A DNA stretch of 64,000 nt, taken from NCBI GenBank assembly GCA_021799275.1, contig JAJZAT010000006.1, positions 39,677 to 103,676 on the forward strand, given 5' to 3'. This document shows, in pieces, positions 13,418 through 57,950 of the stretch (position 1 is the first letter of the stretch; each line of letters opens with the position of its first letter). This DNA comes from Bacillota bacterium (GTDB lineage Bacteria > Bacillota > Sulfobacillia > JAJZYS01 > JAJYTV01). The translations under genes were made by a program, and so were the position numbers. A model generated the notes under the pieces. The model did no database searches, was not told where the DNA came from, and was given only the letters and a program-made list of their open reading frames with translations.

Positions 13418-13461
13418 CTCCATGTTGCGAGACGCGATAGCCCGGGTGCACCCGTAGCACT

Positions 13462-13592
13462 TCGGTGGCTTGCGAGGTTAGCTGACGGGCTGGAGTCGAA
13501 GTGCGACTCTGCGCCAAAAGGCGCTTCGCCCCGATTTGGTGGGTCCCCCGCTCTCCCCCGGAAAGGGGAGATTCAGCAATGAAGAGTGACTC
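13462..13592 (-). promoter_or_regulatory. c-di-AMP riboswitch (ydaO-yuaA type)
   Basis: Reading the minus strand from about 13592, the leader contains the conserved blocks of the ydaO motif in order: TTGCTGAATC, a small hairpin, AGCGGGGGACCCA, GGGGCGAAG, a variable hairpin, then CCGTCAGCTAACCTCGC. These blocks are diagnostic of c-di-AMP riboswitches (Rfam RF00379 type). The aptamer begins just after a promoter and is followed by an intrinsic terminator, so binding of c-di-AMP should shut off the GT20 gene. Exact ends are approximate. Confidence 0.9.
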
Positions 13593-53038: not shown

Positions 53039-53803
53039 TTGAACTTGAACGGTCGGATCCGAAATGTGTGGCGGTCGATCAGACGCCTGCAACGCAGAGC
53101 CGTCGCCGCCGTGCGCCGTGAACCCATGATCTGGAGTGCTGCCCTTCTCTTCGCGATGATCGCCGTCGTCGCCGCCCTCGCGAACGGCGGAGCCGGCCCG
53201 AAGTCACCGGCGCTCAGCCTGTCCGGGCAGGTCGAGCGCAACCGTATGCTCTCGGCGGAGCGACAGGCGGCCACCGCGCAGGCCATCGCGAACCAGCCGC
53301 AACAGGCGCCGGCTACCTCGCCCCTCTTGCAGTCGGCGCAGCCCCCGGCTCCACCCGCCAGCACGCCGGCGCTCGCCCCGACATCGCAAGTGACGGCGGT
53401 CTGGCCCCTGCACGGGAAGATCGCCCTGGGCTATGGCTGGGTGTTCGACCCGACGGGTGGCTACTGGTTCTATCACACGGGCTGGGAGATCGAAGCTGCT
53501 GCCGGATCCCCTGTGCATGCAGCTCTGCCCGGCAATGTCTATGCCGTCGAGAGGGAGTCGTCCGGAGCCTACACCATACTGGTTCGCTCGTCCGACAACA
53601 TCGTCACGACGTATAGCGGTCTCGGTTCGACAGAGCTCGCGGTGGGGGGATCTGTCGGGCAGGGAGGCGCCATCGGTACCTTGCCGACCGGCAAAGGGAG
53701 CCGCAGCGGCCGCCTTGGCTTCTCGATCACGCGGGCCGGACAACCCGTAAACCCCGCTTCGCTGCTGCCCGAGTCGACGGCAGGCGCATCGCCGCAAGGC
53801 TGA
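53039..53803 (+). CDS. spoIIQ: SpoIIQ-like M23 (LytM) exported protein
   Basis: 254 residues from TTG 53039. One transmembrane segment (WSAALLFAMIAVVAAL, about residues 31-47), a Pro/Ala/Gln-rich linker, then a LytM/M23 domain: G-K-I-A-L-G-Y-G-W, H-T-G-W-E-I-E-A-A-A-G-S-P-V-H-A-A-L-P-G. The catalytic D and H residues of M23 are lost (E replaces D; R-L-G-F-S replaces HLHFE), as in SpoIIQ, which serves as a scaffold between forespore and mother cell with SpoIIIAH. It is followed by spoIIID, mbl and fabZ, the order known in Bacillus. Ribosome site of the chosen start is weak. Confidence 0.8.
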   Translation: MNLNGRIRNVWRSIRRLQRRAVAAVRREPMIWSAALLFAMIAVVAALANGGAGPKSPALSLSGQVERNRMLSAERQAATAQAIANQPQQAPATSPLLQSAQPPAPPASTPALAPTSQVTAVWPLHGKIALGYGWVFDPTGGYWFYHTGWEIEAAAGSPVHAALPGNVYAVERESSGAYTILVRSSDNIVTTYSGLGSTELAVGGSVGQGGAIGTLPTGKGSRSGRLGFSITRAGQPVNPASLLPESTAGASPQG

Positions 53804-53849
53804 GCGCATAAGTATTGCGCGAACGTTGCCGAGGAAGGGGCCGGATGGG

Positions 53850-53918
53850 GTGAAGGACCACATCTGGAAGCGGGCGCTTGACGCCGCCTGGTCAGCTGCA
53901 AGGCAGGGACGGCCCTGA
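53850..53918 (+). pseudogene. spoIIID: spoIIID 5' fragment (residues 1-9 plus read-through)
   Basis: GTG 53850, 9 bases after GGAAGGGG, reads M-K-D-H-I-W-K-R-A and then diverges (L-D-A-A-W-S-A-A-R...) to a stop at 53916. These nine residues match the SpoIIID N-terminus (Bacillus: M-H-D-Y-I-K-E-R-T). The spacing to Y-I-V in Bacillus is the same as to Y-I-L in the 3' fragment at 55950. Without excision only a 22-residue peptide is made. With excision at the att-like cores, the full 84-residue SpoIIID is restored. Confidence 0.85.
53868..53876 (+). other. attL-like core in spoIIID 5' end
   Basis: AAGCGGGCG. Matches the right copy at 7 of 9 positions (AA, CG, GCG). The crossover dinucleotide is not determined; AA is non-palindromic and so directional, while CG and GC are not. 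Confidence 0.6.
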
Positions 53919-54497
53919 TGACGTGGACGGGGAGAACATGACGAACAGAACCACAGCGGCACCCGAAGCAAAAAACGCTTCGGGTGCCGCTACAATCGCG
54001 GGCAAGTGGTCGCCCGCGGGATGTTCGAGGGAGCGCCGGCAAGTGGCCGGCGGCCGCGCAATCGGAACTACTTGGCGGCTGGTTTCGCCGTGTGCCGTCC
54101 GCCAGGGGGAGCTTTGGCTGAGCGGTGCGTACGCTGAAGCCGCACTGGAGCCCGATGTCCTCGTAGCGATAATGCCGCGGTCGTAGCGCCCGAGGTGCAC
54201 GGTGCGTCAACCAATTTCCCCAGTCGAGTGTCCGGGTCCGCGCCCGTCGTCGGACAGGAGATATCAGACGACGACGGTGCGGACGATCGACTCGGGCTAT
54301 CGGGACGCCTCCCGATCACGCCATCCTCAACGCGTGAGGGTGGTCCGCGGCCTGACTTCATGATGCGGAAGGCCCGGCGAGCTCGATAGTGCCGAATGGG
54401 CCCGTCGACGCGGGTCCGATCGTACCGAGGCGACCTGCGCAAGGAGGAGGAGGCGTCCACATAGACTGTGCCGGCGCACTGGACAGGAGGGATCCGG
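53919..54497. other. Element interior without a convincing gene
   Basis: About 580 bases between the 5' spoIIID fragment and the small ORF. An open frame from ATG 53938 (83 residues) has a weak GGGGAG site, but contains a 15-bp perfect hairpin at its start and looks non-coding. Minus-strand frames have no ribosome site. Promoter and attachment-arm sequences for the recombinase must be here or just upstream. Confidence 0.5.
53955..53991. repeat. 15-bp perfect inverted repeat inside the element
   Basis: AGCGGCACCCGAAGC (53955-53969), loop AAAAAAC, complement (53977-53991). It lies about 80 bases inside the left boundary. It lacks a T-tract after the stem, so it may be an accessory site for the recombinase or an RNA structure rather than a terminator. 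Confidence 0.7.
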
Positions 54498-54590
54498 GTG
54501 GAAATCCGGGTGGATGTGTCCGAGCGTGAATGGCGCGAGGCCTGGCACGCCCTCGTCGAGCAGCTGCGGCGCAGGGGCAGGCTGCGGTGA
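54498..54590 (+). CDS. 30-residue peptide coupled to the recombinase
   Basis: GTG 54498 follows AGGAGGG at good spacing and its TGA overlaps the recombinase GTG (GTGA). Sequence V-E-I-R-V-D-V-S-E-R-E-W-R-E-A-W-H-A-L-V then E-Q-L-R-R-R-G-R-L-R: an amphipathic, basic helix. It might be a leader peptide for translational coupling or a very small directionality factor; not recognised. Confidence 0.55.
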   Translation: MEIRVDVSEREWREAWHALVEQLRRRGRLR

Positions 54591-55942
54591 ACGGCAACTT
54601 TGCGGTCTATGCGCGCGTCTCGACCGACGAGCAGGCACAGCACGGCACGTCGCTGGACGGGCAGATCGAACGTTGCGAGGCTCTGGCGCAAAAACTTGGC
54701 GCCACGGCCGTCCGGCGCTTCGTCGACGCCGGCATCTCCGGCACCGACTTTGCGCGGCCAGGCCTGCAGGCGATGCTGGCGGCCGCCCACGCGCACGAAG
54801 TCGAGGCGGTCGTCTGCCTGGATCCGGACCGACTTGCGCGCAATCTCAGCCACCAGCTCATCATCACCGACCAGCTCGAGGGCATCGGCGTCGAACTGCA
54901 CTTCGTTCAGTTCGAACGACGGCCGACGCCGGACGGCAGGCTCCTTTACGCCATTCGCGGCGCGATTGCCGAGTTCGAGGCGCACAAGATTCGCGAACGC
55001 ACGCGCCAGGGCAAGCAGCAGCGTCTGCGCGAGGGCAAGGCTGTAACCGGCACGCAGATCCTGGGCTACATCTACGACCGCCGGCGCAAGGGGTTCTCCG
55101 TGGATGTGGCCGAAGCCGCCATCGTGCGCGCAGTCTTCGCGATGGCGCCGCAGATGTCCACCGGGGCGATCGCGCGCAATTTGAACGCCGCGGGACTCTG
55201 CGCCAAGGGCGGAGGTCCCTTTTCGCAGTCGGCTGTGTATGGCATCCTGCGCAACCCGACCTACCTGGGCAGGATGGTGCAACTGCGCGGGCAGGGCAGC
55301 ATCGAACTTCCTGCGCTGGTCAGCCGCGAGACCTTCGACCTGGCGGCGGCCGCCTTAAGCTCCCGCCGCCGCAGGCCCGAGGGACATGGGCGCGTCTACC
55401 TCCTGAGCGGCATCGCGCGCTGCGCGCTCTGCGGGCGCAAGGTGACTGGCAGCGGCGGCAGCCGTCCCTATTACGCGTGTTCGGGCAAGCGCATGCAGCC
55501 GGCTTGCAGCTCCCCGTACTATCCGGCACAGCCGCTCGAGGCGGCCGTATGGGCACAGGTCGTGGCGAAACTAGAGCAGGCAGCGGAGGGGGTCGTTCCG
55601 CAGATCGAGGCGTGGGCCGAGCGCGCTATCGCACGGGATCGCAGGCGTCTTGAGACGAGGCGCCTGCGCCTCTTGCAGTCAGGGGCCGCCGGGAGGCTGT
55701 CGCCGGAGGACCTCGCCCTCGCGCTCGGGCAAGTGGACGCCCGCCTCAGGGCGCTCGAACTGGAGCCCTCTCCCGCGGAACGGGGCGGCGACAGCGCTGC
55801 CGCCCGGGAATACCTGCGCGAGACGGATGCCATGGGCCGGCGCGAGATCCTGCGCATCTTGGGCATCGAGGTGCGCATTGGACCTTCCGGCATCGACATC
55901 GCCATGGCGGAGCGTCCGGCTGCGCCCATGTCTGTCCAATAA
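54587..55942 (+). CDS. Large serine recombinase of the spoIIID element
   Basis: 451 residues from GTG 54587, translationally coupled to the 30-residue ORF. Resolvase domain at the N-terminus: A-V-Y-A-R-V-S-T-D-E-Q (nucleophile Ser12) and L-D-P-D-R-L-A-R (catalytic Arg pair). Then a Recombinase domain (I-V-R-A-V-F-A-M, Q-S-A-V-Y-G-I-L-R-N-P-T-Y-L-G), a zinc ribbon (C-A-L-C-G-R-K-V ... Y-Y-A-C-S-G ... C) and an Arg/Leu-rich coiled coil at about 345-430. This is the family of SpoIVCA, which excises skin in Bacillus. The stop lies within the right core, so the 3' end of the gene is directly joined to spoIIID. A partner directionality factor is not recognised. Confidence 0.93.
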   Translation: MNGNFAVYARVSTDEQAQHGTSLDGQIERCEALAQKLGATAVRRFVDAGISGTDFARPGLQAMLAAAHAHEVEAVVCLDPDRLARNLSHQLIITDQLEGIGVELHFVQFERRPTPDGRLLYAIRGAIAEFEAHKIRERTRQGKQQRLREGKAVTGTQILGYIYDRRRKGFSVDVAEAAIVRAVFAMAPQMSTGAIARNLNAAGLCAKGGGPFSQSAVYGILRNPTYLGRMVQLRGQGSIELPALVSRETFDLAAAALSSRRRRPEGHGRVYLLSGIARCALCGRKVTGSGGSRPYYACSGKRMQPACSSPYYPAQPLEAAVWAQVVAKLEQAAEGVVPQIEAWAERAIARDRRRLETRRLRLLQSGAAGRLSPEDLALALGQVDARLRALELEPSPAERGGDSAAAREYLRETDAMGRREILRILGIEVRIGPSGIDIAMAERPAAPMSVQ

Positions 55943-55949
55943 CCGCGCG
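55941..55949 (+). other. attR-like core before the spoIIID 3' fragment
   Basis: AACCGCGCG, overlapping the last bases of the recombinase gene. It starts the region in frame with M-E-V-A-D-Y-I-L. Confidence 0.6.
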
Positions 55950-56177
55950 ATGGAGGTCGCGGACTACATTCTCGCGACGCAGGACACGGTACGCGACACA
56001 GCTCATCGCTTCGGGGTCTCGAAGAGCACCGTGCACAAGGATGTCACGGAGCGTCTGCCGCGCATCAACCCGCAGCTGGCGCGGCAGGTCAAGAGCGTGC
56101 TCGAACACAACAAGGCCGAGCGTCACATCCGTGGCGGCGAGGCGACGCGGCGCAAGTTCCTGGAGCGCTCGCTCTAG
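55941..56177 (+). pseudogene. spoIIID: spoIIID 3' fragment, lacks its own start
   Basis: Frame reading N-R-A-M-E-V-A-D-Y-I-L, then the HTH G-V-S-K-S-T-V-H-K-D-V-T-E-R-L-P-R-I-N-P-x-L-A, and R-H-I-R-G-G-E-A-T. These match SpoIIID (G-V-S-K-S-T-V-H-K-D and R-H-x-R-G-G-E-A-T are diagnostic). SpoIIID is the mother-cell regulator acting after SigE and on sigK. ATG 55950 has no ribosome site, so little of this should be made before excision. Joined length would be 84 residues (Bacillus 93), about 10 residues shorter at the C-terminus. Confidence 0.9.
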
Positions 56178-57826: not shown

Positions 57827-57850
57827 GGTTTTCGCCAAAAATCGAACATG

Positions 57851-57943
57851 CTCATCGCGAGTGGTGGAGGGGCTGGCCCGATGAAACCCGGCAACCGGGC
57901 GTTTGCCACGGTGCCAAACCCTGCAGCATCGCTGAGGGATGAG
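57851..57943 (+). promoter_or_regulatory. SAM-I (S-box) riboswitch
   Basis: P1 arms CTCATC (57851-57856) and GATGAG (57938-57943). Conserved blocks: GAGGGGCTGGCCCGATGAAACC, then CCGGCAACCGGG, GGTGCCAAACCCTGC and CTGAGGGATGAG. This is the SAM-I class. SAM binding should favour the terminator and reduce metK expression. Confidence 0.96.
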
Positions 57944-57950
57944 AGAACGC

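Follow-up and report, generated by a model that had tools for sequence, protein, structure and literature searches.

The spoIIID locus of the window genome

The window analysed here is a stretch of 64,000 nucleotides from a Bacillota genome (G000, contig C47) in which spoIIID, the gene of a mother-cell sporulation regulator, lies in two halves with a 2,073-bp element between them. See Table 1 for the coordinates of all features. A first-pass annotation, made from the sequence without database searches, had placed the start of SpoIIID at 53850 behind a Shine-Dalgarno sequence and its remainder up to 56177, and both placements were borne out. The left half begins with a GTG codon, and the Shine-Dalgarno duplex ahead of it is strong (-8.3 kcal/mol). 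The right half by itself (55953-56177) scores 125.1 bits against TIGR02844, which passes the cut-off, and the joined protein scores 139.8 bits. The joined protein aligns without gaps to Bacillus subtilis SpoIIID (PDB 2l0k) across residues 1-80, further than the 24 residues originally claimed. The genome, which is estimated to be 97.5% complete, contains exactly one SpoIIID match; the second, whole spoIIID that the first-pass annotation had named as evidence against an interrupted gene was not found in it.

As had also been noted, the 2.07 kb between the halves hold one large serine recombinase whose stop codon falls in the right junction, 7 nt ahead of codon 10 of the right half. The protein has all three large-serine-recombinase domains (Resolvase, Recombinase, and zinc ribbon), and its best NCBIfam score is to CcrB, at 117.4 bits and below the cut-off of 900. 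None of nine further open frames (64-404 residues) in the element matched a Pfam family. The earlier inventory of the element was thus right about the recombinase; a conserved 30-codon gene and an RNA-like region, described below, went unmentioned in it.

Table 1. Features of the split spoIIID locus, in window coordinates.
Feature	Position	Strand	Details
Sigma-E-like promoter candidate of spoIIID	53785..53816	+	CGCATCG, 15 nt, CATAAGTATT
Left half of spoIIID	53850..53881	+	Codons 1-10 plus GA of codon 11; VKDHIWKRAL; GTG start
Putative attL crossover dinucleotide GA	53880..53881	+	Same in both copies, 12/12 genomes
Left attP arm, at the element's left end	53882..53907	+	Inverted-repeat match to the other end, 14/26 in the window
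Strong hairpin after the left half	53955..53991	+	Terminator-like without T run; -32.5 kcal/mol
Conserved region with covarying RNA-like structure	54030..54467	+	96 pairs, 24 changed on both sides
Sigma-E-like promoter candidate of the recombinase	54439..54467	+	GCAAGG, 15 nt, CATAGACT
30-codon gene, candidate directionality factor	54498..54590	+	Stop overlaps recombinase start
Large serine recombinase, 451 residues	54587..55942	+	Pfam Resolvase, Recombinase, Zn_ribbon_recom
Right attP arm, at the element's right end	55927..55952	+	Inverted-repeat match; overlaps recombinase 3' end
Putative attR crossover dinucleotide GA	55953..55954	+	Same in both copies, 12/12 genomes
Right half of spoIIID	55953..56177	+	Codon 11 to stop; TIGR02844 and PF12116

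Crossover site and element ends

We compared the 12 genomes in which both flanks of the element are available, scanning codons 6-15 for bases that are identical on the left and on the right. The GA of codon 11 is identical in both flanks in all 12, and it is the sole adjacent pair so kept. The crossover therefore likely takes place at this GA, and by this reading the element measures 2,073 bp from GA (53880) to GA (55953). Joining the flanks at GA gives a normal SpoIIID start (first 30 residues) in every one of the 12 genomes; the whole protein was checked for G000. The restored sequence is KRALEVADYI in seven genomes of the window family, KRVLEIGDYI in G011, KRVMEVSRYI in G086, and KRVLEVSRYI in G084, G088, and G089, the last equal to that of the uninterrupted gene in G085. 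The first-pass annotation had proposed AA-N-CG-N-GCG as the matching core of the two junctions. That match is real in G000, but it is not common to the relatives and sits slightly off the GA, and it was rejected as the crossover core.

The ends of the element are also related to each other. When the 26 bases inside the left GA are compared with the reverse complement of the 26 bases inside the right GA, 177 of 312 positions agree (57%) in register, compared with 22-35% in ten shifted registers, although the 12 genomes are related and so do not count as independent. Taken genome by genome, the arm match was equalled by at most 30 of 5000 shuffles in nine of the 12. Joined together, the element ends would therefore form an imperfect palindrome centred on GA, resembling the attP of serine integrases as described in the gin paper (PMC5595907).

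Conservation of the two halves

The two copies of the junction are conserved on opposite sides of the same point. Among 14 left halves, codons 1-8 read VKDHIWKR in all and codon 10 encodes L in 13 and M in one; the left copies vary from codon 12 (codons 12-17), with three of them reaching a stop at codon 14. Among 14 right halves, codons 1-7 do not resemble SpoIIID, codon 10 encodes M, V, T, A, or L, and all share E at codon 11, YI at codons 15-16, and TVR at codons 22-24. Conservation thus runs up to codon 10 on the left and starts at codon 11 on the right, which places the change-over at codons 10-11.

The ratio of nonsynonymous to synonymous differences per site (pN/pS) of the right half is 0 to 0.12 in all 36 pairs from nine family genomes; synonymous sites differ by up to 75%. 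The recombinase is constrained too, with values of 0.16-0.55 in 21 of 21 pairs (seven genomes), the high values being pairs between two genera with synonymous sites near saturation. Judged from these comparisons of sequence, both halves of spoIIID are conserved at the protein level.

Occurrence across genomes

A split spoIIID was found in 16 genomes of three families: all ten genomes of the window family, G011, and five of six genomes of a family designated f44. In the window family, the right half was seen in nine genomes and the left half in eight, and in each genome at least one half shares its contig with the recombinase. Five family genomes have both halves on one contig, with element lengths of 2.07-2.16 kb. 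G011, from another family within this order, has its split at identical codons, made by an element of ~1.75 kb. Unlike in the other elements, its recombinase is on the strand opposite to spoIIID (element L041 2422-4169). In f44, the right half follows a serine recombinase in G084, G086, G088, and G089, and the left half precedes one in G087; the elements of G086 and G088 (L061 and L062) are larger, at about 7.5 kb and 4.9 kb. Uninterrupted spoIIID among relatives, which the first-pass annotation had suggested looking for, is present in G085 (f44) and in G010 (order of the window). As the split occurs in 16 separate assemblies, an assembly artefact was rejected.

In a survey of the class, 128 of 154 genomes had a SpoIIID match, and in 14 of these the best match begins at profile position 4 or later (nine family genomes, G011, and four of f44). 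Left halves add G009 and G087 to these 14. A recombinase profile gave scores of at least 500 bits in 16 of the 154 genomes, precisely the 16 with a split gene, with the next score at 375 bits; the profile was built from ten of the 16 recombinases, so the independent part of this co-occurrence test is six genomes. Each recombinase scoring at least 500 bits shares a contig with a spoIIID half. At a threshold of E 1e-60 the profile matched 50 of 154 genomes. The flanks of lower-scoring recombinases of the class (14 loci, L157-L170) contained no spoIIID motif, and no spoIIID right half was found in the available flanking DNA of recombinases L073-L100 from the genome contigs. A survey of the phylum covered 398 genomes by best matches only, and our claims are limited to the class.

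Recombinase phylogeny

In a tree of 38 rows, the 12 spoIIID recombinases form one clade with support of 100/100. The power of the outgroup is limited by the sampling: the query was family-based, and five rows of fewer than 350 residues were removed beforehand. Inside the clade, G011 is placed with f44 (99/96) rather than with the window family, which shares its order. Within this sample the association of spoIIID with this recombinase seems to be old and to have arisen once, and the element would either have moved between lineages or have been lost often. Cousin recombinases of Syntrophomonadaceae and other Bacillota (L073-L080) fall outside the spoIIID clade. Further resolvase-domain genes of G000 lie on contigs C49, C22, C10, C23, C13, C6, and C50.

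Small gene, hairpin, and promoter candidates

The 30-codon gene directly ahead of the recombinase gave no NCBIfam match. Directionality factors known from elements of this kind are small proteins. By eye, a similar small frame, with a strand-like start followed by A..AL..L, stands ahead of the recombinase in every family genome with sequence extending to this point, which leaves out G002; in G007 and G008 it ends right before the recombinase start rather than overlapping it. Similar frames, again by eye, precede the recombinase in G011 and in three of four f44 genomes examined (G084, G088, and G089), and none could be made out by eye in G086.

The hairpin after the left half recurs at -32 to -41 kcal/mol in G011 and in all eight family genomes that have this half, and at -17 to -28 kcal/mol in the five f44 genomes, these being the energies of the best hairpin per genome, taken without a shuffle control. 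Its position is kept and its sequence mostly differs among genomes, with partial likeness between G000 and G003 and between G006 and G008. The hairpin may stop the transcript of the broken spoIIID.

The -10 consensus of sigma-E promoters is CATACANT. Ahead of the left half, GCAT and CATA motifs are kept in eight of eight aligned family genomes, and in the interrupted genes a spacer of 15 nt separates the GCAT motif from a CATAAGTATT- or CATAGAGATT-like sequence (spacings counted by hand). In the nine family genomes whose DNA covers the recombinase promoter candidate, the -10-like sequence is CATAGACT, replaced by CATAGATT in G005 and CATACACT in G006, all close to the sigma-E consensus. The motif ahead of it is GCAAGG in seven of the nine and GCAATG in G009, with neither in G006. 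The CATAGACT site closes a conserved block that precedes the small gene. Upstream of spoIVA, ATCATAG-N14-CATATGAT is conserved in the four family genomes that could be aligned; the search motif did not locate this upstream region in four others.

A candidate structured RNA inside the element

The conserved block precedes the recombinase and ends at its promoter candidate. Mean identity across 54030-54467 is 68% in the eight family genomes aligned. In the structure predicted for the plus strand, 24 of 96 pairs have changes on both sides, compared with 11.8 +/- 2.0 in shuffles (0 of 500 as high); the structure was derived from the same alignment, which biases the test in its favour, and the shuffles ignore relatedness. 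Sliding the structure by 1-3 columns leaves 2-9 double-changed pairs, and in register 90.8% of cells pair. Column-shuffle folding energies are low on both strands (z of -8.1 for plus and -7.0 for minus; seven sequences, 60 shuffles, coding part included), so energy leaves the strand unsettled; invariant G-U pairs speak for the plus strand. An Rfam search gave no match in 54030-54467; its one hit, at chance level, was inside the recombinase gene. We regard this ~430-nt region as a candidate for a new structured RNA within the element.

Genomic neighbourhood

An M23 peptidase gene precedes the split spoIIID and MreB follows it. In Clostridioides difficile, a LytM-domain gene lies between spoIID and spoIIID (Galperin et al., PMC3533761), and the locus therefore looks native. 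The sigK gene of G000 is uninterrupted, covering 220 of 227 profile positions in a single frame. Elsewhere in the window, a SAM riboswitch (57849-57945) lies just ahead of a frame that looks like S-adenosylmethionine synthetase, and a c-di-AMP riboswitch lies on the minus strand (13451-13588).

Search for an excised form

We scored 8000 candidates for protein relatives of the joined sequence; of the best 120, 23 were examined as sequence and the rest by identity and coverage. Rows with at least 90% identity cover at most 95% of the joined sequence. The three nearest of these (P0001, P0002, and P0004), as well as P0008, are split forms; gene callers annotate them as SpoIIID with an unusual start, and splits of this kind are therefore easy to overlook. 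The best-scoring uninterrupted protein among the 120 (P0003) has KRAIEVADYI and reads MKDHIWKRAIEVADYIM, nearly the predicted joined sequence.

Interpretation and alternative explanations

We consider it highly probable that the ~2,073-bp element with its large serine recombinase interrupts spoIIID within codons 9-11 and would be excised in the mother cell during sporulation to give whole SpoIIID; we infer both the excision and its mother-cell timing. The element combines a split gene, a serine recombinase, a core with arms, and a restored frame, four features of a sporulation gene-intervening element. A skin-like element in spoIIID had been the proposal of the first-pass annotation, and comparison of the 16 split genomes upholds it. 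As far as sequence can speak to it, this reading is strongly supported by the split in 16 genomes, the single recombinase clade, the conserved halves, the symmetric arms, and the intact orthologues in neighbours.

Several observations weigh against it. No excised chromosome or circle was seen among the top 120 proteins related to the joined sequence, and the named family records of these uncultured bacteria are metagenome assemblies. Arm symmetry is weak in three of the 12 genomes (G003, G005, and G086, where 127, 150, and 424 of 5000 shuffles equalled it). The grouping of G011 with f44, together with its opposite strand, means that the history of the element is not one of simple vertical descent. 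The small gene as a directionality factor is a guess from its position and size, and the promoter candidates of spoIIID and of the recombinase are assigned to sigma-E, provisionally, by likeness of motif. Genome-wide, the strict pattern GCAWGG-N15-CATARA has a single hit, the recombinase site itself, and it therefore recovers no other sigma-E promoter.

The disagreement between the recombinase tree and host taxonomy for G011 and f44, the different orientation in G011, and the intact genes of G010 and G085 would also fit an ordinary mobile element that favours spoIIID and comes and goes without a link to sporulation, in hosts that may not sporulate. We think this unlikely: the element is present in ten of ten family genomes with both halves conserved, and its nine other frames lack a Pfam match. 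The same ten genomes all have spoIVA above the cut-off and all have spoIIIAA-like matches, one above the cut-off and most just below. The present element may well have arisen from an ordinary mobile element. A dead insertion, by which spoIIID has been lost for good in these lineages, would agree with the failure to find an excised form among the best 120 relatives; its probability seems to us close to negligible, as three families and two genera have kept the halves at the protein level despite divergence at synonymous sites, and none of 16 recombinase matches has an internal stop.

It is also conceivable that the right half is used unjoined, with ribosomes finishing the recombinase and restarting at codon 10 to make SpoIIID minus its first nine residues, without excision. 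In 11 of 14 genomes the right half has ATG or GTG as codon 10, and this codon sits 7 nt past the recombinase stop in eight family genomes (10 nt in G007, counted to codon 11), and the right half passes the TIGR02844 cut-off without its partner. This explanation is nonetheless very improbable. Codon 10 is ACG, GCG, or CTG in G006, G007, and G011, and the recombinase of G011 is on the other strand. The Shine-Dalgarno energy at codon 10 is -5.2 to +1.0 kcal/mol (14 genomes) compared with -8.3 to -11.9 at the true start (16 genomes), and restarting would leave unexplained why codons 1-8 of the left half are unchanged in 14 of 14.

Proposed mechanism

We read the element as a domesticated switch of the skin or gin type that gates SpoIIID itself. 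Once active in the mother cell, sigma-E would transcribe the recombinase as well as the interrupted spoIIID. With the 30-codon product as a presumed directionality factor, the recombinase would join attL and attR at GA; spoIIID would become whole, the circle would take the recombinase genes with it, and SpoIIID would then carry the programme onward. The spore would keep the element because only the mother-cell chromosome would be rearranged. A fuller version is possible but rather doubtful: sigma-E would drive a module of ~430-nt structured RNA, 30-residue directionality factor, and recombinase, an ancient domesticated switch that moved the irreversible step from sigK to SpoIIID and destroys its own genes by self-excision, with the RNA timing the cut. 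If the proposal is true, the irreversible step stands one level above sigK, which is itself whole here. The element is small and has no recognisable cargo in G000. It occurs in every examined genome of one family and again in two more families, and its recombinases form a separate clade; these traits make it a good example of a mobile element that became a developmental part.

Comparison with known systems

XisF, the excision recombinase of the cyanobacterial fdxN element, is a serine recombinase that excises an element from within a gene in terminally differentiated cells. The recombinase described here matches its NCBIfam model (NF041201) at E 3.9e-28 and 98.6 bits, far below the cut-off of 375. 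The gene spoVFB belongs to the sigma-K cascade, at or below sigma-K. The mother-cell role of SpoIIID is taken from the literature. In the retrieved passages of open-access papers, known excisable elements lie either in sigK or in genes placed at sigma-K or further down the cascade, and passages on related elements do not name spoIIID as a target. The literature check called for by the first-pass annotation likewise returned no title or abstract with spoIIID as a target in the open-access literature, a scope outside which most subscription papers and all bioRxiv preprints fall. A 2023 paper on yin names sigK, spsM, spoVFB, gerE, and yabG as targets (PMC10747680).

Like skin in sigK of B. subtilis and C. 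difficile (PMC5025042, PMC6957869), the element would use a large serine recombinase to rebuild a mother-cell regulator, and the 30-codon gene meets the recombinase start much as skr overlaps the 5' end of spoIVCA. Skin is prophage-like and interrupts sigK, whereas the element here lies in spoIIID and sigK is whole. Efficient excision of skin in B. subtilis and C. difficile needs SpoIIID (PMC5025042), a need that cannot apply here. The interrupted gene encodes the very regulator that has a hand in ordering skin excision; the recombinase must therefore act independently of SpoIIID, and the order of commands must differ. The prophage-like elements yin in yabG, vfbin in spoVFB, and SPbeta in spsM are excised to rebuild sporulation genes (PMC10747680). 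The present element shares with them its place in a sporulation gene, but their targets are non-regulatory and yin is known from one strain only.

A further likeness is to gin, a non-prophage element in gerE of Bacillus cereus ATCC 10987 with GirC and the 42-residue directionality factor GirX (PMC5595907). Both are non-prophage elements in a small mother-cell regulator gene, with a serine recombinase and a short core with inverted repeats, and the 30-codon gene, as a candidate directionality factor, would be the counterpart of GirX. Gin has three serine recombinase genes and interrupts gerE, whereas the element here has one, interrupts spoIIID, and resides in another host; its target acts above sigK and is split in every family genome examined. 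The class of mechanism is thus known, and what is new is the higher-ranking target, the minimal element, and its presence throughout a family.

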